Shown in pieces: positions 12,499 through 59,096 of a stretch of 64,000 nucleotides of DNA. Source of the stretch: Umbribacter vaginalis (GTDB lineage Bacteria > Actinomycetota > Coriobacteriia > Coriobacteriales > Eggerthellaceae). The stretch lies in assembly GCA_001552935.1 (NCBI GenBank), contig KQ959676.1, positions 113,948-177,947 on the forward strand, in the 5' to 3' direction. How positions within the stretch are numbered: position 1 is the first letter of the stretch; each line of letters begins with the position of its first letter. The translations under genes were made by a program, and so were the position numbers. The notes under the pieces are model-generated. The model searched no databases, was not told the origin of the DNA, and worked only from the letters and a program-made list of their open reading frames with translations.

Positions 12499-13311
12499 TT
12501 ATAGGTTGTCTACGATTGCTTGCTCGCGCTCTGATAGCGCGAAGGTGTACACCCCATCTTGTAGCTGCACTCCTTGCGCGCGAATGTCTGCTGCGTCTTG
12601 CAGCTGTGCCTCTTGCGCGCGAATGTCTGCTGCGTCTTTTCGTGAGATTAAAAGCCCGCCGCCGAATATTGCCTTCTTGAGCGGCTTTTGCGCGGCGAGG
12701 CTACGCACAAAATGAGCGCGTTTAATCTTGAATTGAACGCCTTTAGCTGCTAAATTTCCCAAGCGTGCCGATGTCATAAGCTCGCTCGGATAGTTGTATT
12801 TCACAACTTTATTCGCTCGGTTCTGCGTCCTGCCGTACGTCTTTTCTTCTTTAACTTGTTTGTTTACCTTGTCAAGCTCGCGTGATAGGTCGCATGCTGA
12901 TCGCGTAATGCAGTCGTCCATATTTGTCAAAAACGCTGTTCGCACTTGCGCGCCATTCTCATACGTTATTCGCGCATCTACGAACACGAAGCACATGCCC
13001 TTACGTTGCGCATAATTGAGTGCCGTCAAGCTCGGTGCAAACAGAAAGTACTTAATGCCGCGCTCGTTGTACCAATCGACAATTTGCGCAAGGATTGAAA
13101 AAGGCGGGTTGTCAACAACAACTCGCCCTGTGTAATCTTCTCGCTGATAACCCCCCCCCGGCTTAAATGGTCGGATGACGCTTGCGCGATCTATGCCGTA
13201 TTCTTTTTCACACCACGTAAGCACAGCTTCATATATTGCTGGAGGTGTATAGCAATCATCGGTTGTCTTCTTGTGCTTGAATTTATCGACAAACTCATCG
13301 TAATCTTGCAT
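12499..13311 (-). CDS. N6-adenine methyltransferase-like phage protein with G9 tract
   Basis: The start at 13311 is taken because AAAGGAG stands five bases before it. The 270-aa protein has the DNPPFS motif (adenine-specific methyltransferase motif IV, from about residue 67) and an upstream 'IRPFKPGGGYQ' in place of a glycine motif. Other AdoMet-binding motifs are weak, so activity is uncertain. The PGGG codons form a run of nine G (13159-13151) in which slippage would shift the frame. Near the C-terminus a 13-residue unit (AADIRAQEAQLQD) occurs twice, encoded by a 39-bp DNA duplication. The gene lies between MuF-toxin and scaffold, where an immunity gene might be expected. Confidence 0.75.
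   Translation of the reverse strand: MQDYDEFVDKFKHKKTTDDCYTPPAIYEAVLTWCEKEYGIDRASVIRPFKPGGGYQREDYTGRVVVDNPPFSILAQIVDWYNERGIKYFLFAPSLTALNYAQRKGMCFVFVDARITYENGAQVRTAFLTNMDDCITRSACDLSRELDKVNKQVKEEKTYGRTQNRANKVVKYNYPSELMTSARLGNLAAKGVQFKIKRAHFVRSLAAQKPLKKAIFGGGLLISRKDAADIRAQEAQLQDAADIRAQGVQLQDGVYTFALSEREQAIVDNL
12558..12635 (-). repeat. 39-bp tandem duplication in the methyltransferase-like gene
   Basis: Units 12558-12596 and 12597-12635 are tandem copies with a few differences near the start of each unit, and the last 20 bases are identical. The repeat is in frame and adds 13 residues per copy, so copy-number change would not destroy the gene. Confidence 0.85.
13151..13159. repeat. Homopolymer C9/G9 inside a coding region
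   Basis: Nine consecutive C on the plus strand read as G9 in the methyltransferase-like gene. It is one of only two such long G/C runs seen in the window. Runs of this length are typical slippage sites. Confidence 0.9.
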
Positions 13312-45587: not shown

Positions 45588-46066
45588 TTTTTTCTTACAC
45601 CTCACCCTTTGCATAAGTCTTTCTTTGTGCGGAACGTACCTGGTCACGCGTGTATCTTTGCGCAGAACGTACCTGGTAACGTGCGCGCTTTCCTGTGTGC
45701 GCCGAGGCAAAACGTTGCAACGAGCGCGTAATCCTTTGCAGTCAACACCCCTGCTTGAACGCACGTGGCGCGCACGCAGCACTCGCACTTCCGCCCCTGC
45801 CTGCTCACGTTCCCCATCACACAACTCCCCTTCTCATGCGCGTTCGATCTTATGCCGCGCCCCTGCTCGTTCGCGTTCCCCACCCCACAAAGCACGACAC
45901 CGTTTCGTTGCAAACTTTTAAGGAAAAAATAAGCACCGTGCTTTAATCTATGCACATTGTTTAGCACTACGAAGCAATTGAAGCTCCAGCACATTGTGCG
46001 TGCATAAACAGCAATATGGTATTCATTGAGGGCGCGCCCTCACGACCTGCACAAGGAGATAAACTT
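45588..46066. other. Intergenic region before the first surface protein
   Basis: Open frames exist in both directions but none has a ribosome site or recognisable product. A word of the type GCAGAACGTACCTGGT occurs twice (about 45638-45655 and 45659-45677). No clear promoter for the following gene was identified. Confidence 0.5.
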
Positions 46067-48010
46067 ATGCGAAACCGACACACTGTTGTGGCTGCGTTAA
46101 CAGGGCTTACCTTACTTATGCCAGCCGCTCATCTTACCAACGCTTATGCCGTCGATGATGCACAAGCAAACGATGCGCAAGGACAAAACGCTTCCACAAG
46201 CGCGAACAATGCACCTCAGGCAAACAAAGCAGGTGTAGCAGCTCCGCTTACACAAAGCGACGTTGATGATGCGCAAAAAACTGCACAAGAAAAGCAGCAA
46301 GTAGCGCAAGGTGCTAAGGAACAACTTGCCGCTAAACAGCAGCAAGTAACGCAAAAGCAAGCCGAGCTTGCAGATGCTCAACAAAAGCTTGAAGGGGCAA
46401 AAGAAGCTGAAGAGCAAGCAAAACGCGCGGAGGCAGAAAAATTCCAACAGCTTGAACAAGCAAAACAAGCAGAAAAAGAAGCTCAAGAAGCAGTTGATAC
46501 AAAAACAGAAGCTCACAAACAGCTTACAGAGCAAAGAACACGCCTTGTTGACGAGCAAAAAACTGCTCTGCAACAAGCACAAAAAGAAGTAGAAGAAGCG
46601 CAAAAGCAGCTTATCGCAAAAGAGCAAGAACAAACACAGGCAAAGGAAGCACTCACCGATCATACCAATAAAGTTTCTCGAACAAGAAACGATATAGCAG
46701 ACCTTAAAAATAAAGTAAGCCATGCGGCTAATGAGCTTCAAACTGAACAAGCTAAAAAAATGCAGTACAGCTTTGAAAAACAGCGTCTTGAGCGCAATGG
46801 ACAGGCGCAGCAAAATCAAGCACGCATCGCTGAATTAGACAAAAAAATTAAAGAAGCAAACCAAGCGATTACCCAAAAACAGCAAGTGTTTACTCAGCTT
46901 AATGATCAAAAAACAGAGGCTGAAGACACACTCAAAAACGAAGCAGCAACCAAACAACAGTTACAAGAAAAGATCAAAACAGCCGATCAAAATTATAATC
47001 AGGCAAACACACAACATACAACACTTACTGAAAAGCTAGAGACCACTAAGAAAGATCAGCAACAAGCACTTACCGCCCTTGATGGCTCCATTGCACAAGC
47101 AGCACAAGAGCTTGACGGTCTTAAGAAAACGCTTACCGAGAAAACAGGACTACAGGAAAAGGCGCAAGAGGCACACGAACAAGCTGTGAATAACAAAAAC
47201 AAGCTTGAGCAAGACCGAGAAGTACAAGAAAGGGCGCTTGCTCCCCTTCAAACTGCGGTTCAGGAAATGAGTAAAGAGCTTGAACAGAACAAGCAAGAAG
47301 TTCAAAAACTAGAAACTGAAGCGCAGCAAGCGCAACAGCACGCACAACAGGTTCAGCAAACGTACACCCAACAGCAAGCAGCTAACAATCAAGCACAAAA
47401 TAACGCACAGGGTAACGCACAAGCACAAAACCCTCAAACAGGAGCAGGAGCTGGCTCTACCACCACACCTTCACAACCACAGGGTGCTGGCAGTGCAGCT
47501 GGATCAGGAGCTGGAACAGGACAAAACGCACCTGGTGCAAATGCTGGAGCAGGTCAAACTACACCTGGTGCAAATGGGAATACTCCCGGTGCAAACCAAA
47601 ACACACCTGGTGCAACCCAAAATACTCCTCAGAACGGCAATACGCAGACAGGCGCAACTAACACCAAGCCATCAGCACCACAGCAGCCACAAGCTAACGC
47701 ACACGGCAACACAATGCATCAAACACAAAGTCTTTCAGCGGGTATTACTCCTCCAAGCGTCAGCGCAAATGGTGCTAACGCCATGCATGCAAACAACAAG
47801 CGCGATACCATGGCACTTGCTGCTCACACGCAAACAAACTACGCAAAAGATGCAGATGCTACAAGTAAGAACGCAAACGCTGCGATGCCTAAAACAGGCG
47901 ATTCAGCAGCCGTTACCTTAGCTCTTACGCTGTTTGCCGCTGGCGTTACTACCCTCGGTGCACGCAAACTGTATAGCCGCAAGGCATGCCACGCATCAAA
48001 ACGTCAATAA
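46067..48010 (+). CDS. Coiled-coil surface protein with MPKTG sorting signal
   Basis: From the ATG at 46067 (AAGGAGATAAACTT upstream) the product has 647 aa. A signal peptide (1-30, ending THAYAV-like 'TNAYA') is followed by a Gln/Lys/Glu/Ala-rich alpha-helical rod (about 60-450), then a Pro/Gly/Asn/Thr/Gln-rich wall-spanning region with 'NTPGANQNTPGAT' type repeats (about 460-560). It ends with MPKTGDS, a hydrophobic helix and a basic tail (SRKACHASKRQ). The sorting motif is LPXTG with Met in first place. It is probably a wall-anchored fibrillar adhesin. Confidence 0.9.
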   Translation: MRNRHTVVAALTGLTLLMPAAHLTNAYAVDDAQANDAQGQNASTSANNAPQANKAGVAAPLTQSDVDDAQKTAQEKQQVAQGAKEQLAAKQQQVTQKQAELADAQQKLEGAKEAEEQAKRAEAEKFQQLEQAKQAEKEAQEAVDTKTEAHKQLTEQRTRLVDEQKTALQQAQKEVEEAQKQLIAKEQEQTQAKEALTDHTNKVSRTRNDIADLKNKVSHAANELQTEQAKKMQYSFEKQRLERNGQAQQNQARIAELDKKIKEANQAITQKQQVFTQLNDQKTEAEDTLKNEAATKQQLQEKIKTADQNYNQANTQHTTLTEKLETTKKDQQQALTALDGSIAQAAQELDGLKKTLTEKTGLQEKAQEAHEQAVNNKNKLEQDREVQERALAPLQTAVQEMSKELEQNKQEVQKLETEAQQAQQHAQQVQQTYTQQQAANNQAQNNAQGNAQAQNPQTGAGAGSTTTPSQPQGAGSAAGSGAGTGQNAPGANAGAGQTTPGANGNTPGANQNTPGATQNTPQNGNTQTGATNTKPSAPQQPQANAHGNTMHQTQSLSAGITPPSVSANGANAMHANNKRDTMALAAHTQTNYAKDADATSKNANAAMPKTGDSAAVTLALTLFAAGVTTLGARKLYSRKACHASKRQ

Positions 48011-48149: not shown

Positions 48150-48194
48150 ACACGCCACTATGCACGCAAGCGCGTAGTGGCGTGTTTATTGTTG
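48150..48194 (+). terminator. Terminator after the first surface protein gene
   Basis: ACACGCCACTA (48150-48160) and TAGTGGCGTGT (48175-48185) pair perfectly and are followed by TTATTGTTG. This is a strong rightward terminator about 140 bp after the stop. Confidence 0.88.
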
Positions 48195-48383
48195 CTGTTC
48201 GCAGTATAATACATGTGTTTAGAACGAGCTAAGCAACGTTCACCGATAAAAATTCACCATAATAGTATTCTCACAAAAAAATTATATAAAACACGCAAAA
48301 TGATTGTCTTTATAAAGCGCTACCATTATCTAAGGTGCTCATACGCATTTGACAAGGGTTAATTATATAAATCAATGAGCTTA

Positions 48384-48393
48384 CCCCCCCCCC
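48384..48393. repeat. C10 homopolymer upstream of the adhesin promoter
   Basis: Ten consecutive C stand in otherwise A/T-rich DNA, about 95 bp upstream of the -10 box. Such tracts slip readily. A change in length could alter promoter geometry and switch the adhesin gene. Confidence 0.9.
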
Positions 48394-48488
48394 GCATACT
48401 TTTGTCAATAGAATTTACAATATAAAGTTAAATTCGACTAATATTCTGAGAAATTTATAAACAGTATTAGCTAAATTATACAAATTCT

Positions 48489-48497
48489 TGGTATAAT
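48489..48497 (+). promoter_or_regulatory. Extended -10 promoter of the giant surface protein
   Basis: TGgTATAAT is a perfect extended -10 box. The -35 region is poor. CTTG-gtataat-CAAG makes the -10 box the centre of a palindrome, a likely operator. Confidence 0.7.
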
Positions 48498-48572
48498 CAA
48501 GGTGCATAGAACTATACCTTGCGGAGCAAAGGTCGAGATAACACAACAGTTTGTTTTGTGGAAAGGGTTGTC

Positions 48573-51500
48573 ATGACTAAGAAAAATTTTGGTAAACATG
48601 CTCGTAGCACGAGTGAACAAACAGCACACACGTTACGTACCGTAAGTATAGGAGCAGCGGGCGCTCTTGTTGGAGCATCGCTTGCTTTGGGCGTTTCACC
48701 AAGTGGAACTCCGCTTGCTCATGCCGAAACTACGCCTGCAACACCAGCACAAAGTCAAGCGCAAACACCAAGCACGCATGCTCCTCGCGTAAATAATGCG
48801 CCATCGACAGGCGTTGTAAAACAGTCTTCGACAGCTCAAAACAATCCTCTTACTGCTACACAAAACAATCCACGTACCGCCAGCACTGCTGGAAATGCTA
48901 CGCAAGGCACCGATCGCGCGGCAACACCTACGCCTCAAGGCAACGATCGCGCTGCAACACCTGCTGCGCCACAGCAAGCAAACAACGAAATTACGCTCTC
49001 GAAAGAAACAAAAGACACGCTTCCCAATATGTATGCATGGGGCTCTTCCGACAATACCTACATTGAAGGCGGACAAAAACAAGAAGTTAAATTTACCCTT
49101 AAGCCAGCCGATGGTGTTGCAGTTACCAAGGTTGCTATTTTCCCGAACGATAACATTGATATTAATGGTAGAAACGCAAAGGATTTTGTAGAGTACAGAT
49201 CAGACAACAAAGACGCGCATCAAGCCTATTCGGGTGAATACTCCCTTGTCACAAATGCCGACGGCTCTGCTGTTCTTACCATGAGCCCCATGTATAGAAA
49301 CAACAACATGGCCGCAGCAGGCTATGCTGCAAACCGCTGCATCTATGTGTATGGCATGAAAGACGGGCAGGAAGTTCTGCTGTACAAAACAAACATCGCC
49401 CGTGCAGCAACGCTTATTCCACCGAAAACAACAGGTTCGATTGTTTTAAGATACGATCAAAAGCTTGAAGAAAAAACTATTCGCGAAAAGCTTCAAAAGG
49501 CACTGGATGCTCCTACTGCAGGCAAGGATGGCAAATCGCTCCGTGATCAAATTGCAGATGCGAGCCAGGCTAAAGGCGTTGGCGTGCGTGACAAAGATAA
49601 TCAAAAGAAGCTTGATAATACACCCGATAACCCCGAGAAAAAGATTCTTGTTACCGATAACCAGGCCTATGATGTTAATCAAGTGAATTCCATTAACAAG
49701 GTAACGTCGAAGCCCGATGCAAAAGTAATCACCTATCAAACTGGTGTTGTAAAACTTAAAACCTACCTGGTATCCGACTTAGGCTACAAGTCTGACGTGC
49801 TGCCTCTTACCATTGCTCGCTATGACACGCGCATCGACAAGCCCACCGTCGAAGATCCAACCAATGTTTCGCAAGACGTTAAAACCGACATCATCAAAAA
49901 ACTTGCGGCGCTTAACCATGTTGCCCAAGACAAGGTAAGCATCAACGACAAAGGCGAAGTTACCATCAACTTCGAAGGCGTAGACGCACAAGACGCTCCC
50001 AAAATCGCCCTTCGCGACCTCGTTTTGAAAAAGCTCAAGGAAGGTGAGTTTGCTGTTCCTGCAAACGACAAAGCAGTCTTTGTTGCTAACCCACTTGGAT
50101 ATTCAAAAACTGAACTTGATCGAATTAAGACAGCTATTTTTGAAGCCAACAAAGACAATACAGAGCTTGGCCTTACCAGCAAAGATCAAATTACGCTTTC
50201 ATATCTGGAAGGCGATCTTACTGCAACTGGTGACTCTAATAAGGGAATCTCGAACGGTCAGGCGGAAAACAAGATTACCGTTAAGATTAAAACTGACAAG
50301 TCAGTTGCCGAGTTTACGTCTAATGTAAAAGAGAACAAGCTTACCAAGCTTCCAGATATCCGTAAGGATTACGACGTTTCGTGGACTAAGGCCAAAATTG
50401 ATGGTCGCGATACCGACGAGGGTATTTCTTGGAGTAATGATCAAAAAACCACTATCATCTACCGTTACGATCCAACTAAAGCAGAAAAGTTTGATACAAC
50501 AAAGATTCTTGGTTTGCTGAAGGCTACGCCAAAAGACAAGCAAGCTGGTTTGCGCGACCTTACAGGCGGCGAACAGCTTTCCTATGAAGGTACAGGGAAT
50601 AACGGGCGCAAGTCGCACATGCACTATGCGTTGCAAAATGGCGAGCCAACGGGCGAGCTTACGCTGGGCAATATGAGCGGCGCTTATTGGCAGGGAAATC
50701 AGGAAGTTTCTAATTCTGACGTAGACCTCGGTGATAATTTATCAGAAGCTGGTTCGTATTCATGGGATACAGAAGCTGGCTCGGTAAAGGTAGCCGGCAA
50801 AAAGGGCAAGATTTATAAGGCACGTTTGTTTGTTCAGCCGTATGCAATGACGTACTATAAGGATGTTTATCTGGAGCAAGGCCGCAATCCAGGCAATACA
50901 GCAAAAGCGATTAACATTATCTTTGTGCCGCAAACGAATCATAAGACAAAAGACCTTTCGGATTCGATTGGCGAGCACAAAACCGAAACTGTTGATGGCA
51001 AGGACGTTCCAACACAGTCGAAGTACTACAACGCGTCTGCTGATAAGAAAGAGGCGTATGAAAAGGCTCTTGATGCTGCAAAGACGCTGTATAACTCTGT
51101 AAAGGATACGGACGAGTCAAAGCTTACCGAAGAGCAGAAGGCACAAATCGATAACGCTACGATTAACCTTAATAAGGCGCGTAAAGAACTTGATGGTCCT
51201 GACACCAACAAGGACGGACTGAACACCTCGATTGAAGCTAATGGTAAGGCTGCTGAAGGCACTAACCCTGCGTCTGGTACGCAAGCAACGAACCAGTTCA
51301 AGAACGTAAGCGATCCTGACTTCAAGGATGCGAATGGTCAGCCTGATACCAAGAAGAATGAAGACGCAAAGAAGGCTAAGAAGGCTTACGATGACGCGCT
51401 CGCTGAAGCTAATAAGGTAAGCGCCGACAAGAACGCCACGCAAAAGGCTGTTGACGACGCGAAGGCGAAACTCGATGCCGCACGCAACAAGCTGAACGAA

Positions 51501-54500
51501 TTCACCACCAACAAGGATGAGTTGAGTGCCGCGATTGCTAAGGACGGCAAGGTAAACACGGGTGAGGCTGGTAAGACAGGCGACGAGAAGCTTAAGACTG
51601 CCGACCCAACCTACCAAAACTCTACCAAGGAAGAGCGCGACGCATACGACAAGGCTGTTGCTGAAGCTCAAAAAGTAGTTGCTGACCCCAACGCTTCCCA
51701 GAAGGAAGTAAACGAGGCTATCAAGAAGCTTAAGGAAGCTAAGTCAAAGCTAGACGCTAAGGCTACGGATAAGTCTAAGCTTGCTGCAGCAGAAAAGCAA
51801 AGTTTCGATAATCCTGATACTGCTGACCAAAGTAAACAAAGCGTCTTCTACAAGAATGCACTTACTAAGAAAAATAATGGTAACGAGCAAGAAAAACAAG
51901 CGGCCGAACAAGCAATTAACAATTATGACCAGGCATTAGCTAATGCTCGCACCATTCTTAACAACGAAAAAGCAACACAGGCGCAAGTTGACGAAGCTAA
52001 GAAAAAGCTTGAAGAAGCCGAAAACGCTCTGCATGAGAATTATAAGTCCGACGATAACGACCTTACGAAGGCAATCGCAAATAATGTGAGTGGTTACCTT
52101 ATGCCAGCGTACTTCAATGCGTTTGATCAGGCTCAAAAGGATGGCGCAGACTCTCAGGCTGCTAAGGACTTCAAAGCCTACAATGATGCTTACCAGAAAG
52201 CCAAGGCGTTAAGTGCGAAGCTTAAGGAAACGGAAGAGTCCAAGAAGCCAAAGCAAACAGAGATTGATGCTGCTAAGACGGCTCTTGAAGATGCTCGTAA
52301 AGTCATCGATAAGTACGCAACTGACACCAGTAAGATTTCGGCGGCGTTGCTTCACAGCTTGGCCATTACTACAAGCCCGGCGTATAAAAACGCGTCTGCA
52401 AATACTGATCCAAATTCTGACGAAGCTAAGGCAAAGAAGGCGTACGATGATGCGCTTAAGGAGTTGCAAAAAGCCTTCAATGACCAAATGGATAAGGACA
52501 AAGGTGCTGACGGAGCAGAAATCCCAGAGTCCGTTATTCCAGATAAAGATATTGACATGACCAACGCAGATGCGCTTAAGAAGTTGCAGCAACACGCTAA
52601 GGGTCAGCCTTTGAATAGGGATGTAACAAGGCTCCTTGCAGATCTTAATGCTGCTGTAAAAGGCCTGGATAAGTTCGCCACCAAGACTGACGAGCTGATT
52701 AAGTCGATTAACGAGGATGCGACTACGCATCCAAGCCCTGCGTTTAAGAACGCCTCGCTGCCAAACTACCAAAAAGCTGATGGCTCGGGACCGGATGACA
52801 CCAAGAATGCTGCCGCCAAGAAGGCTGTAGATGAATATGGCGAGGCTCTCAACAAGGCGAAAGACTTGCTGAACGATCCTAATGCCACACAAGCGCAGAT
52901 AAACGAGGCAAAGAAGAACCTCGACGAGAAGCGTAAGGCTCTTGACGCCTACAACACCGACACCACCAAGCTCAAAGAAAGCGTAAAGAAGCATGGTACG
53001 AAGGCAGATGTTCCTGCTCCAGAAGAAGGAACGCTTACTTCTGATGCGTATCGAAATGCATCAGATCCGCACTTCTTAACTCCTGATGGCAAGCCGGATG
53101 AACAGAAGAACAAACAGGCTACTGAGGACAAAAAGGCGTATGACGATGCATTACGTAAGGCTCAGGAATTGCTTAAGAAGGCAGGTCCCGATAGCAATAC
53201 GCCACTAGATGCGCAGCCAACTCAAACAGAAATTGACGAGGCGCTGAAGACTCTCGATGAAGCTCGCAAGAAGCTTGAGGATAACTACAAGACAGTTACC
53301 ACTAAGCTTGATGAGGAAGCAAAGAAGTCGACTGCAGACGGCGCTACCGTGGCCGAAGCAGACTTTGAAGCTACGCCAGAGTTCAAGAACGCTAAAGCTA
53401 AGACAAGCGATGGTAATGAAAATGCAGATGTTACTGCGTACAAGAAGGCTCTTGCAACTGCTCGCAAGCTAGTAAGCGATGCAAAGGATACAACCAAGAA
53501 GAACAGCGAACGTCCAACGCAGCAACAAATTAACGAAGCACTGGACGCTCTTCAAGCAGCTAAAAAGCAAATTACTGACAACTACAAAACAGATCTTGGA
53601 GCGTTAACTGCCGCTAAAGATTTTGCAGGTGACGGCTTCAAGAAGACGCCTGAATACAAGAATGCTGTTGCTAAGAAGACTGCTGGTGACCAAGGTGCTA
53701 CAAATGACTTGGGCAAAGATGGTGAGCAAACTGGCTTCGACAATGTTCTGAAGAAAGTTACCGAAAAGCTTAATAACGAAGATTGGAAGAAAAAAGCAAC
53801 TCAGAAAGATGTAAGTGCGCTGCTTAAACAACTGCAAGGTGCCCAAGACAAGATTGCGAAGAATTATAAGACCGACGCAACCACACTTCAAAATGAAGTA
53901 GGCGACAAAACGCAAGATGGCAAGCCGGTTGTTCCTCCGTTTGAAGCGTCGGTGCCCTACAAGAACGCACTCGCAAAGTCGAACGCTGGTGACGCTACTG
54001 CAACGGAAAAGATTAAGACCTATACTGACAAGCTGAAGGCAGCACAAGACTTAATTGACCAGGTAAACAACACCGATCCAAATGCTGACCCCGATAAAAA
54101 GCCAACACAAGAGCAAGTTAACAATGCTCTGGATGAGTTGCAAAAGGCTAAGAAAGACATCGCCGACGCCTTCAAGACTAAAGCTGATGCCTTGAAAAAA
54201 GAAACGAATGAGCTTAAGGACGACGGTCAACCAAAAGAAGAAAAAGACAAGTTTGAAAAGTCTACCGAGTACCAGAATGCACTTGCTAAGACGGATGCTG
54301 ACAGCAAAAAAGATGTACAAACGTACAAAGATGCTCTAAAGAAAGCCAACGAGCTTCTTGAACTGTTCGGCGATGATGGCAACCCGAAGGCTGATATCCC
54401 AGCTGGAAAGCAAATTCCAACGCAGCAAGAAGTTGACGAGGCTCAAAAGGCTCTGAAAGAGATTAAAGATAAGATTCTTGCTAACTACAAAACGAACCCG

Positions 54501-55250
54501 AAAGATCTAAACGATGAGGCGCTAAAATCACGGGCTGACGACAAAGATAAAAACCCGAACGCCTTTGAGATGACGCCTGCCTTTAGAAATGCACAAGCAA
54601 AGGGCGACGATGCTGCTAACGCGAAAATTAAAAATTACAATGACAAACTTAAAGCGGCACGGAAGCTTCTTGAGGCGTTCGACCTGGTTAATGGCGGTGT
54701 AAAAGCAAAGCTGCCTGACGGTATGGATAATGCTCCAACCCAACAGGAACTCGATGCTGCGCTTAAAGCTCTTCAAGATGCAAAAGCAGCAATTCTCAAA
54801 ACGTATGACACCAACGCACAAGCACTAAGCGATGCTGTAAACAGCGACTTTGCTAATACAAAAGCATATCAAAACGCGATTCATGAATACGGAATAGACA
54901 AGTCGTTCCTGAACAAATACCTTGTAGCGTATCAAAAAGCGCTTGCTACTGCTAAAGAAATTCTTGAGAGACATAACGGCAACTATGATCCAAGTGACAA
55001 GCCAACGCAAAAAGAAGTTGACGATGCACTTAAAGCACTGCGTCTTACTATGGATACGCTGACCGAAAAGTACAGCACCATGCCAAGCTTCTTAGATCCG
55101 AAGACCTATGGCAACGAACCTGCGCAGGCACACAAGCAGCTGCCCAAAACAGGAGATGCGCTGCCCCTGTATGCAAACTCTGCTGCGGTACTGGTAGCAA
55201 TTGCGGTACTTACTCGTACGAATCGTCGTCGTAAGCAGAACCGCTCATAA
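48573..55250 (+). CDS. Giant LPXTG-anchored surface protein with 14 repeat modules
   Basis: From the ATG at 48573 (GGAAAGGG upstream) the product has 2225 aa. A YSIRK-like signal (LRTVSIGAAGALVGASLALG) is followed by a Thr/Ala/Pro-rich stretch to about 140, then a non-repetitive N-terminal region to about 795. Fourteen modules of about 75-120 residues follow. Each has the form 'NYKT....L....F..TPxYKNA.AK...Y..AL..A..L.....PTQ..V..AL..L..AK..I', a FIVAR-like helical bundle. LPKTGD, a membrane helix and a RRRKQNRS tail anchor it by sortase. It is probably a long stalk adhesin. Ligand unknown. Confidence 0.92.
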   Translation: MTKKNFGKHARSTSEQTAHTLRTVSIGAAGALVGASLALGVSPSGTPLAHAETTPATPAQSQAQTPSTHAPRVNNAPSTGVVKQSSTAQNNPLTATQNNPRTASTAGNATQGTDRAATPTPQGNDRAATPAAPQQANNEITLSKETKDTLPNMYAWGSSDNTYIEGGQKQEVKFTLKPADGVAVTKVAIFPNDNIDINGRNAKDFVEYRSDNKDAHQAYSGEYSLVTNADGSAVLTMSPMYRNNNMAAAGYAANRCIYVYGMKDGQEVLLYKTNIARAATLIPPKTTGSIVLRYDQKLEEKTIREKLQKALDAPTAGKDGKSLRDQIADASQAKGVGVRDKDNQKKLDNTPDNPEKKILVTDNQAYDVNQVNSINKVTSKPDAKVITYQTGVVKLKTYLVSDLGYKSDVLPLTIARYDTRIDKPTVEDPTNVSQDVKTDIIKKLAALNHVAQDKVSINDKGEVTINFEGVDAQDAPKIALRDLVLKKLKEGEFAVPANDKAVFVANPLGYSKTELDRIKTAIFEANKDNTELGLTSKDQITLSYLEGDLTATGDSNKGISNGQAENKITVKIKTDKSVAEFTSNVKENKLTKLPDIRKDYDVSWTKAKIDGRDTDEGISWSNDQKTTIIYRYDPTKAEKFDTTKILGLLKATPKDKQAGLRDLTGGEQLSYEGTGNNGRKSHMHYALQNGEPTGELTLGNMSGAYWQGNQEVSNSDVDLGDNLSEAGSYSWDTEAGSVKVAGKKGKIYKARLFVQPYAMTYYKDVYLEQGRNPGNTAKAINIIFVPQTNHKTKDLSDSIGEHKTETVDGKDVPTQSKYYNASADKKEAYEKALDAAKTLYNSVKDTDESKLTEEQKAQIDNATINLNKARKELDGPDTNKDGLNTSIEANGKAAEGTNPASGTQATNQFKNVSDPDFKDANGQPDTKKNEDAKKAKKAYDDALAEANKVSADKNATQKAVDDAKAKLDAARNKLNEFTTNKDELSAAIAKDGKVNTGEAGKTGDEKLKTADPTYQNSTKEERDAYDKAVAEAQKVVADPNASQKEVNEAIKKLKEAKSKLDAKATDKSKLAAAEKQSFDNPDTADQSKQSVFYKNALTKKNNGNEQEKQAAEQAINNYDQALANARTILNNEKATQAQVDEAKKKLEEAENALHENYKSDDNDLTKAIANNVSGYLMPAYFNAFDQAQKDGADSQAAKDFKAYNDAYQKAKALSAKLKETEESKKPKQTEIDAAKTALEDARKVIDKYATDTSKISAALLHSLAITTSPAYKNASANTDPNSDEAKAKKAYDDALKELQKAFNDQMDKDKGADGAEIPESVIPDKDIDMTNADALKKLQQHAKGQPLNRDVTRLLADLNAAVKGLDKFATKTDELIKSINEDATTHPSPAFKNASLPNYQKADGSGPDDTKNAAAKKAVDEYGEALNKAKDLLNDPNATQAQINEAKKNLDEKRKALDAYNTDTTKLKESVKKHGTKADVPAPEEGTLTSDAYRNASDPHFLTPDGKPDEQKNKQATEDKKAYDDALRKAQELLKKAGPDSNTPLDAQPTQTEIDEALKTLDEARKKLEDNYKTVTTKLDEEAKKSTADGATVAEADFEATPEFKNAKAKTSDGNENADVTAYKKALATARKLVSDAKDTTKKNSERPTQQQINEALDALQAAKKQITDNYKTDLGALTAAKDFAGDGFKKTPEYKNAVAKKTAGDQGATNDLGKDGEQTGFDNVLKKVTEKLNNEDWKKKATQKDVSALLKQLQGAQDKIAKNYKTDATTLQNEVGDKTQDGKPVVPPFEASVPYKNALAKSNAGDATATEKIKTYTDKLKAAQDLIDQVNNTDPNADPDKKPTQEQVNNALDELQKAKKDIADAFKTKADALKKETNELKDDGQPKEEKDKFEKSTEYQNALAKTDADSKKDVQTYKDALKKANELLELFGDDGNPKADIPAGKQIPTQQEVDEAQKALKEIKDKILANYKTNPKDLNDEALKSRADDKDKNPNAFEMTPAFRNAQAKGDDAANAKIKNYNDKLKAARKLLEAFDLVNGGVKAKLPDGMDNAPTQQELDAALKALQDAKAAILKTYDTNAQALSDAVNSDFANTKAYQNAIHEYGIDKSFLNKYLVAYQKALATAKEILERHNGNYDPSDKPTQKEVDDALKALRLTMDTLTEKYSTMPSFLDPKTYGNEPAQAHKQLPKTGDALPLYANSAAVLVAIAVLTRTNRRRKQNRS

Positions 55251-55922: not shown

Positions 55923-58900
55923 ATGACCATTTCGAGACGAGATCTGTTCAAAGCAGGAGCGCTCACCTTTGGTGGGTCGCTGGCATTTCAGCTATCGCAA
56001 CAAAGCGATGCACATGCCTTTGAAGCAACAAAACACTGGAAATTACAAGACACAAAAGAAAGCACCTCGGTCTGCTGCTATTGCGCAGGCGGATGCGGTC
56101 TTATTGCGTCAACGCGTAACGGCGAGCTGGTTGGGCTTGAGGGTGACCCCGACCACTTTGTAAGCGAAGGTGGTTTGTGCCCGAAAGGCGCTACCGAGTT
56201 CCAAACCGAACGTATTGTTGATCCAAAAACGGGTGTACTGATGGACAACCCCGGGCGCATTACGTCGCCACGTGTGCGCCGCCCCGGTGCAAACAAATGG
56301 GAGGACATCACCTGGGAGCAAGCGTTCAAAGAAATTGCACGTCACGTTAAAGAAACGCGCGATGCAACCTTTGAACTCAAAGACAAAAATGGCACCACTG
56401 TTAACCGTACTGCAGCAATAGGTTCACTGGGCGGTTCATCAATGACCATCGAGGAAGATTACTTCATCATGAAGTTCATGCGCTCACTTGGTCTTATTAC
56501 GATGGACAACCAGGCGCGTGTTTGACACTCCTCAACGGTTGCCGGTCTGGCACCAACAATTGGCCGAGGCGCAATGACCTCGCAATGGGGCGATTTAAGC
56601 AACGCCGACGTTCTTCTTACCTGCGGCTGCAATAATGCAGAAAATCATCCTATTTCTATGAAATGGGTAAACCGTGCGCTCGACAAAGGCGCAAAATGGA
56701 TTGTTGTTGACCCGCGTTTTACGCGTAGTGCAGCACATGCAAACATCTATTTGCCTATCCGCCCTGGTACCGACATTGCATTTTTTGGTGGCATGATTAA
56801 CTACATCTTCGAGCACAATAGAATGCAAAAAGAGTACTGCACACACTACACGAATCTTACCTATCTTATTAACCCAGGTTATTCCTACGATCCTGAAACG
56901 GGCTTGTTCAGTGGTTGGAATGAAAAAACCAAGAAGTACGACAAGTCGTCGTGGTCGTATCAAACAGAATCGACCCATGAGTGGGATACCAGCGCACAAG
57001 GCGCCTACGCGTGGACAAAGCAGCCAGGTGTTCCTGCCTTTACGCCTCCTGTGTTGAAAACACCGAAAAAAGACCCAACGCTTAGCGATCCGCATTGCGT
57101 ATACCAAATTATGAAGAAGCACTATGCACGCTATACGCTGGATAAAGTATCGAGCATTTGCGGTATGAATAAAAAAGCGCTTGAAGAAGTGTATGACATT
57201 TACACACAAACAGGCGCAAGTAATAAAGCTGGTACCATTCTTTATGCACTGGGACAAACGCAGCACCATGTAGGCGTTGGCAATACACGCATTATGACTA
57301 TCGTTCAGCTGCTGTTAGGCAACATTGGCGTGCCGGGCGGTCAGCTTGCAGCACTTCGTGGCGAGCCAAACGTGCAAGGCTGCACCGACATGTGCATCGA
57401 CCCGGGTGCAATGCCTGGCTATCTGCAATGGCCAAGCAGCGTGAACGACCGCACGATTCGCGAGTATTTCGAGCACGAAACACCTGCTGATGGCTACTGG
57501 GCAAACAAACCTAAGTTCCTTGTATCATTCTTGAAGTCGTTCTTTGGCGAAAACGCTACCGCAGAAAACGACTACGGTTACGACTGGTTGCCCAAAGTTG
57601 ACGACCCCGCGAAACGCTCGCTGCAAAATGCGTTCCACCTGATGGAGGAAGGCATTATCAAGGGCTATTTCTTCTTTGGACAAAACCCGCTGCAATCGCT
57701 TGCAAACGCTCGCTATCTGCGCAACACCATTGGAAACCTCGACTGGATGGTTTTCGATGACATGTACATGACAGAAACAGCATCGTTTTGGGATGCGCCC
57801 GACATGAAAGACAAGGCGTCCAAAATCAAAACGGAAGTGTACTTCCTGCCTGTAGCTGGGCCTTTGGAGAAAGCAGGCACGGTTGTGCAGTCGGGACGCG
57901 TTATGCAATGGCGCTATCAAGCACTGCATCCGCACGGCAATTCAAAACCCGACTTCCACATCTTGTACGAACTGGCAAAACACATTCGCGAGTTGTACAA
58001 AAATGAGGGCGGCGTATTCCCTGATCCTATTTTGAACACAAAATGGGACTACGAAATTGACGGCAAACCCGATACGCGCAAAATTGCATGGGAGCTCAAC
58101 GGCTACAAAACCGCTGATGCAACAGCCGACTTTAAGAACGCAACGCCAAAACTCCTCCCAAGTTTCGCCGATTTGAAAGCCGATGGCTCAACGGCATGCG
58201 CATGCTGGATTTATACTGGCTACTACGCGAACACAAAAGATGCGCTTGACCCTGCTATTCAAAATGTTGCACGCCGCGGTAAAGAAGATCCTGGCAACTT
58301 GAAGATTTTCCCGAACTGGGCGTTTAGCTGGCCTGCCAACCGCCGTATTCTGTATAACCGCGCAAGCTGCGATGAACACGGCAAACCATGGCGCGCCGAT
58401 AAAGTGGTGGTTGAGTGGGATGGCACGTCGTGGAAAACAAACGACGTTCCCGACTTTGTGGCGGCAAGCAAAAACACCGATGGCAAGCTTGTTCCTGTTG
58501 CGCCAAACAACAAAGCGTTCATGATGCGCTGGGAGCAAAACGCATCGCTTTTCAGCAACGCGCTGAAAGACATGCCGCTTCCCGAGCACTACGAGCCTTA
58601 TGAAGCGCCAACAAACAACCTGCTGAACGGGTCACAATCGAATCCAAGCATCTTGTTTGCCGATCACCACTCCATTAAAGACACCACGGGTGCACCTGAA
58701 GAGTATCCGTATGTTGCAACTACCTATTCGTTTACCGAACACTGGTCAAGCGGTCAGGAAACACACTGCGCACCAGCGCTGAACGAAATGATGCCGCACC
58801 AGTATTGCGAGATGGGTGTTGACTTAGCGCGTGAAAAAGGCATCAAGCCTGGCGACAAGGTGCGTCTGTTCAACAAACGCGGCAGCATTGTGGTTCAAGC

Positions 58901-59096
58901 AATGGTCACGCACCGCATTGCGCCTTTGGAAGTGAATGGCAAGCGCACGTATACCATCGGCATTGTGCACGATTGGGGCTGGTCAAACCACTTCGTAACG
59001 GGCGACATTACCAACGATTTGCCGCCTAACGTGGGCGACCCGAACTGTTTCATTCAGGAATCGAAAGCATTCCTTGTTGGACTTGAGAAAGCGTAA
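55923..59096 (+). CDS. fdnG: Formate dehydrogenase catalytic subunit, selenocysteine-containing
   Basis: The gene has 1058 codons, with UGA at 56523-56525 read as selenocysteine (Sec201). The context ARV-U-HSSTVAGLAPTIGRGAMT is that of FDH-N catalytic subunits, and a bacterial SECIS follows. A Tat signal (SRRDLFKAG, residues 4-12), the 4Fe-4S site CCYCAGGC...CPKG (about 55-95) and the molybdopterin domains up to 'VNGKRTYTIGIVHDWGW' are complete. The enzyme oxidises formate outside the membrane and passes electrons to the next two subunits. The UGA is not a frameshift: both sides share one frame and match the family throughout. Confidence 0.96.
56523..56554 (+). promoter_or_regulatory. UGA selenocysteine codon with bacterial SECIS hairpin
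   Basis: UGA at 56523-56525 is followed after 11 nt by GGTTGCC-GGTCT-GGCACC (56537-56554). This folds to a 6-bp stem with a bulged U and a GGUCU loop, nearly identical to the fdhF/fdnG elements bound by SelB. Confidence 0.94.

Follow-up and report, generated by a model that had tools for sequence, protein, structure and literature searches.

A C10 tract upstream of a sortase-anchored surface protein gene in Umbribacter vaginalis is a candidate contingency locus

Slip-prone tracts have already been described in Cutibacterium, Bifidobacterium, Gardnerella and Neisseria, and the C10 tract described here would add a further case. In Cutibacterium (Propionibacterium) acnes, G/C tracts are located in putative promoters or at the 5' ends of coding sequences of surface proteins and their lengths differ between strains; among the putative adhesins, PPA1880 carries a G-tract in its promoter and PPA2127 a C-tract (PMC3224659, PMC4746626). 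The sortase-dependent pili of Bifidobacterium breve (bbr_0113, bbr_1889) are switched ON or OFF by slippage of intragenic G9-G12 tracts that change the reading frame, and the variation was measured (PMC9187656). Gardnerella harbors abundant homopolymer tracts of at least 8 bp, most of them upstream of ORFs and several at surface proteins, and variation of one repeat was confirmed by sequencing (PMC11287997). Repeats located upstream of an adhesin core promoter tune transcription by their length in Neisseria meningitidis, with a distal TAAA repeat at nadA (PMC2791445), and in Helicobacter pylori, with a T-tract at sabA (PMC4081817). Among the papers listed by a literature search on phase variation or slippage in the order to which the present genome belongs, none was on such tracts; one of those listed, on an E. 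lenta prophage, contains the term phase variation two times (PMC8778435).

We noticed a run of ten C residues upstream of a gene encoding a surface protein of 2225 aa (here denoted the adhesin) in a 64,000-nucleotide stretch of the genome, hereafter the window (Table 1). The sequence-only reading had described the tract as embedded in strongly A/T-rich DNA about 95 bp upstream of a -10 box, and this description was borne out. GC content is 31% in the 100 nt upstream and 21% in the 104 nt downstream, and TATAAT (48492-48497), with TG at 48489-48490, begins 98 bp past the end of the tract. The adhesin ATG follows 179 bp after the tract. Because a terminator-like hairpin closes the upstream gene, C10 is located within a 380-bp region serving the adhesin alone. 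The length of ten was read from one assembly of the source genome, in which no length variant of this tract was seen. The adhesin has a Gram_pos_anchor match at G000:C10:169066-169188. The gene directly upstream (46016-48010, + strand) encodes a second surface protein of 664 aa with a coiled coil and an MPKTG anchor.

Table 1. Coordinates of features in the 64-kb window.
Feature	Position	Strand	Remarks
C10 homopolymer, candidate slip-prone tract	48384..48393	+	direct reading and run-length statistics
TGG-TATAAT, candidate extended -10, without good -35	48489..48497	+	chance frequency in window
TTGACAA, left arm of 7-bp inverted repeat flanking C10	48349..48355	+	possible operator half
TTGTCAA on + strand, right arm	48402..48408	-	contains TTGACA on - strand
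GGAAAGGG, likely ribosome-binding site before the adhesin ATG	48560..48567	+	read by eye
2225-aa surface protein (adhesin)	48573..55250	+	signal-peptide-like N-terminus, FIVAR repeats (five stretches), C-terminal LPKTG sortase anchor
Terminator-like hairpin after upstream gene	48150..48185	+	
Other long tract, C9 on + strand (G9 in sense strand)	13151..13159	-	in frame inside prophage gene with NPPF motif

The locus resembles those of C. acnes in that it belongs to an actinomycete with G/C tracts at putative adhesins and surface proteins, but the PPA1880 tract occupies the -35/-10 spacer, whereas C10 ends about 98 bp short of the candidate -10 box. With B. breve it shares a gut actinomycete host and sortase-anchored surface structures. 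The B. breve tracts are intragenic, whereas C10 is intergenic and known from one assembly; its place ahead of the ATG sets it apart from the frame-switch type of the pili. Gardnerella belongs to another order. The nadA and sabA repeats differ from C10 in repeat unit and in distance, and operate with NadR or UP-like elements, whereas at C10 there are only candidate operator halves.

The C10 tract is non-random and longer than chance predicts. C/G runs in the window become steadily fewer with length down to a single run of 6; none of 7 or 8 follows, and then there are one of 9 and one of 10. Across the 1.70-Mb genome, runs of at least 9 were detected at nine loci against about 0.3-0.4 expected, and four of these loci have runs of at least 10 against ~0.06 expected; the expected numbers were computed from the composition of the window, and the two G10 runs that border a single N gap (L006) were entered as one locus. 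The longest C/G run in ten control stretches of 20 kb was at most 6. Runs of exactly 8 occurred at the chance level (two, L011 and L012, against ~2 expected for at least 8) and were therefore left out of the count of contingency loci. At L011, 7 bp separate the G8 from the downstream ATG of a gene for a secreted cell-wall-binding protein. At L006 the assembly has a gap of N's (L006:3079-3198) with G10 at each side, ahead of a surface-protein gene, and it was apparently the tract that interrupted the assembly.

Reading of the fetched DNA and a Pfam scan placed seven of the nine tract loci at genes of secreted or surface proteins, either upstream or within the coding sequence. Upstream tracts precede the window adhesin and genes with atypical Rib domains (L003), a Listeria-Bacteroides repeat (L006) and a GspA/SrpA Siglec-like domain (L008), while the tracts of L002, L004 and L005 are internal to coding sequences with InlB-type or DUF285 repeats. 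A crude rule scored 36 of 183 control ORFs as secreted, against seven of nine tract targets (binomial tail 2.8e-4); the secreted or surface call combines a hydrophobicity rule with reading by eye, and in the control set it also takes in some membrane proteins and probable false ORFs. The remaining two tracts, the in-frame tract of the NPPF prophage gene and that of L007 upstream of a lactate/malate dehydrogenase-like gene, demonstrate that not every tract is at a surface gene. Both would suit a C10 that is a passenger, slip-prone DNA tolerated between genes without an effect on expression. We regard this explanation as rather unlikely, as it is at odds with the genome-wide concentration of tracts at surface genes and with the two tracts of the adhesin orthologue described below, which are independent in position. 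A search with the MutS1 profile (TIGR01070) gave no match in the source genome (0/1), which is 92% complete; the profile was present in 11 of 14 control genomes.

Outside its own genome the only relative found for the adhesin is in Atopobium sp. Marseille-P4126 (G170), 75% identical over 1463 aa and 78% identical when a 680-aa query was used. A search of 395 genomes of the order detected this 680-aa region in two, the source genome and G170, and the region had no relative of solved structure by sequence. The N-terminal 426 aa were found in one of four genomes of the genus and one of 138 of the family, in each case the own genome only, and the adhesin upstream pattern was not found in viral contigs. 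The G170 orthologue (L010) carries two G9 tracts, one at a distance of 258 bp ahead of the ATG, the other in frame within the coding sequence; their contig coordinates (24386 and 24975) are identical in G170 and Atopobium sp. Marseille-P4126, which identifies the two as one genome. The second tract is of the intragenic frame-switch type: at simulated lengths deviating by one or two bases in either direction, the protein ended within 128 codons. We compared the window upstream region with the DNA at the upstream G9 of the orthologue by blastn and obtained no match, the alignment being restricted to the coding sequence; MAFFT forced a scattered alignment. Conservation of the upstream sequence was thus rejected, so that no specific spacing is conserved between the two genes. 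The occurrence of tracts at different places in the orthologue makes chance or simple inheritance a poor explanation. The tyrosyl-tRNA synthetase of the source genome is 79-80% identical to those of G001-G003 and 67% identical to that of G170; the adhesins of the source genome and G170 are therefore closer to each other than their synthetases are, a pattern suggestive of horizontal transfer.

Each of the 12 tracts of at least 9 in G170 lies at a gene for a secreted protein, and one such gene (L033) additionally has an in-frame stop farther along. The L036 gene of G170 is 78% identical to L006 of the source genome, with poly-G before the gene in both. L043 of G170 is 40% identical to L003; its tract falls within the signal-peptide region, that of L003 upstream of the gene. 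Genomes G001-G003 contain six tracts of at least 10, five of them at secreted genes (L016, L021, L026, L028, L064) and L032/L065 not. These genomes are GC-rich, so that runs of 9 are nearer to chance; no evident surface gene was seen at the tracts of 9 of L017, L018, L022, L038 and L044. L016 (G001, G11) and L026 (G003, G10) are homologous surface genes, 52% identical, from sister species of the source genus. The frame of L016 continues from the signal peptide into the mature part; in L026 the signal-peptide frame stops shortly past the tract and the remainder is in another frame. The two look like alternative states of a frame switch in a gene other than the window adhesin. At L021, L027, L030 and L036 of related genomes, poly-G on the sense strand of secreted-protein genes lies within the spacer (16-18 nt) of a good, near-consensus -35/-10 pair (P <= 0.011 each against shuffled flanks), placing these four tracts in the core-promoter spacer class.

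The sequence-only reading had also proposed that an extended -10 box drives the adhesin and that the palindrome CTTG-N7-CAAG around it provides additional control. The box is present, yet its motif, TGNTATAAT, occurs twice in 64 kb against 2.0 expected, and a promoter scan detected no + strand sigma-70 promoter around the adhesin start region. The palindrome also exists (48487-48501), but 48384-48520 holds 27 inverted repeats with 4-bp arms, the palindrome included, compared with 14.2 +/- 5.0 in shuffles, most of the others having A/T-rich arms, and it was discarded as a control element because it is not significant. A location of C10 inside the core promoter of the adhesin, of the -35/-10 spacer type seen in PPA1880 and porA, was likewise rejected (sense P = 0.69 against shuffled flanks). 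An imperfect direct repeat of 22 nt (17/22) covers TATAAT at 48204-48225 and again at 48491-48512, so that two promoters are possible. Transcription starting farther upstream, for example from TATAAT at 48205-48210, would place C10 in a long 5' leader, where its length could act on mRNA structure, stability or translation. The repeat speaks for such a leader; the one starting from the proximal -10 box is short and folds in an ordinary manner (z = -0.12), which speaks against it, and we find a leader effect improbable. An Rfam scan of the window returned three tRNAs and no other family.

C10 is flanked by TTGACAA and TTGTCAA, whose arms are 46 bp apart. Shuffling of this stretch yields some 7-bp inverted repeat in 31% of cases, and the pair of possible operator halves is thus only a lead. 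The same arms might in principle serve recombination that flips the 46-bp core with C10. For such an invertible element, arms of just 7 bp at this shuffle frequency are little to go on, and no recombinase gene was seen adjoining, the nearest annotated neighbours being a surface protein and a formate dehydrogenase; we consider inversion highly improbable. The right arm provides a perfect TTGACA on the minus strand, followed by a 19-nt spacer holding G10 and then TAAGCT. If this is a promoter, pointing away from the adhesin, the tract length would set its spacer, and divergent or antisense transcription could act indirectly on the adhesin or the upstream gene. The position of the TTGACA on the right side of C10 (P = 0.055) and the spacer tracts of L021, L027, L030 and L036 lend this explanation some weight, though the latter are on the sense strand. 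On the other hand, the -10 is poor (3/6) and the spacer long, the P value is not significant given 24 strand tests, no gene of plausible size starts leftward and the neighbour at 46016-48010 is on the + strand. A role of C10 in a minus-strand promoter is therefore quite unlikely.

We favor the reading that C10 is most likely one of a small set of slip-prone switches that vary surface proteins at random. That the adhesin is phase-variable through slippage of the tract is well supported, if indirectly, by the excess of long tracts, their clustering at surface genes, the independent tracts of the orthologue, the in-frame and out-of-frame homologues and the lack of a detectable MutS1. Replication slippage would add or remove C's in the tract, and the products would escape repair by MutS-type mismatch repair. 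Since C10 lies upstream of the core promoter region, each C gained or lost would turn the DNA beyond the tract by about 36 degrees against the adhesin promoter and move it by about 3.4 A. Such shifts may tune transcription of the sortase-anchored protein in steps, as a rheostat, and not strictly ON/OFF. The position of the tract would fit the distal upstream type, its reference point TGG-TATAAT being itself a candidate promoter at chance frequency, and a distal effect, as with nadA (PMC2791445) and sabA (PMC4081817), is most likely. We infer that C10 varies in length and that such variation changes transcription through spacing. On balance we think it probable that C10 is a contingency locus in which slippage tunes adhesin transcription stepwise through upstream spacing. 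The phase-variation switch first proposed for C10 is hence indirectly supported, as a contingency locus, by the tract excess, the surface genes and the orthologue tracts, while the sequence is no more than compatible with altered regulator spacing at an extended -10 box and its palindrome.

The tract set as a whole, with its differing places in homologous genes, is more interesting than C10 alone. We tentatively suggest, at somewhat less than even chances, that the phase-variable surface proteins of the order form a shared set moving horizontally between families, and that a slip-prone G/C tract has been gained repeatedly, its position in homologous genes differing between distal upstream, core-promoter spacer and signal peptide, with switching being selected and the mechanism not fixed. 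If true, little-studied human-associated anaerobes would possess a set of contingency loci of their own, and the genome of one isolate would not describe their surface. Homologous gene pairs with differently placed tracts would provide a natural experiment on the evolution of phase variation; the adhesin, whose tract is distal upstream in one species whereas the other has an upstream as well as an in-frame tract, is an example. The four promoter-spacer tracts predict optimal lengths that are directly testable.

The window includes a prophage (about 331-28000) with genes for tape measure, major head protein, head protease, portal and large terminase. Its gene with the in-frame tract corresponds to phrog_21498 (unknown function), looks methyltransferase-like by eye and has no Pfam match; it is possibly a phase-variable phage methyltransferase. 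Its single viral-contig relative, an IMG/VR record, is 100% identical over 3810 bp, indicating that this contig is probably from the same genome. Downstream of the adhesin, at 55923-59096 on the + strand, a formate dehydrogenase-N alpha-like gene is broken only by an in-frame TGA (56523-56525). The TGA is at the place expected for selenocysteine (ARV-U-HSS), with the profile TIGR01553 ending near position 194, and the gene probably encodes a selenoprotein split into two listed ORFs.
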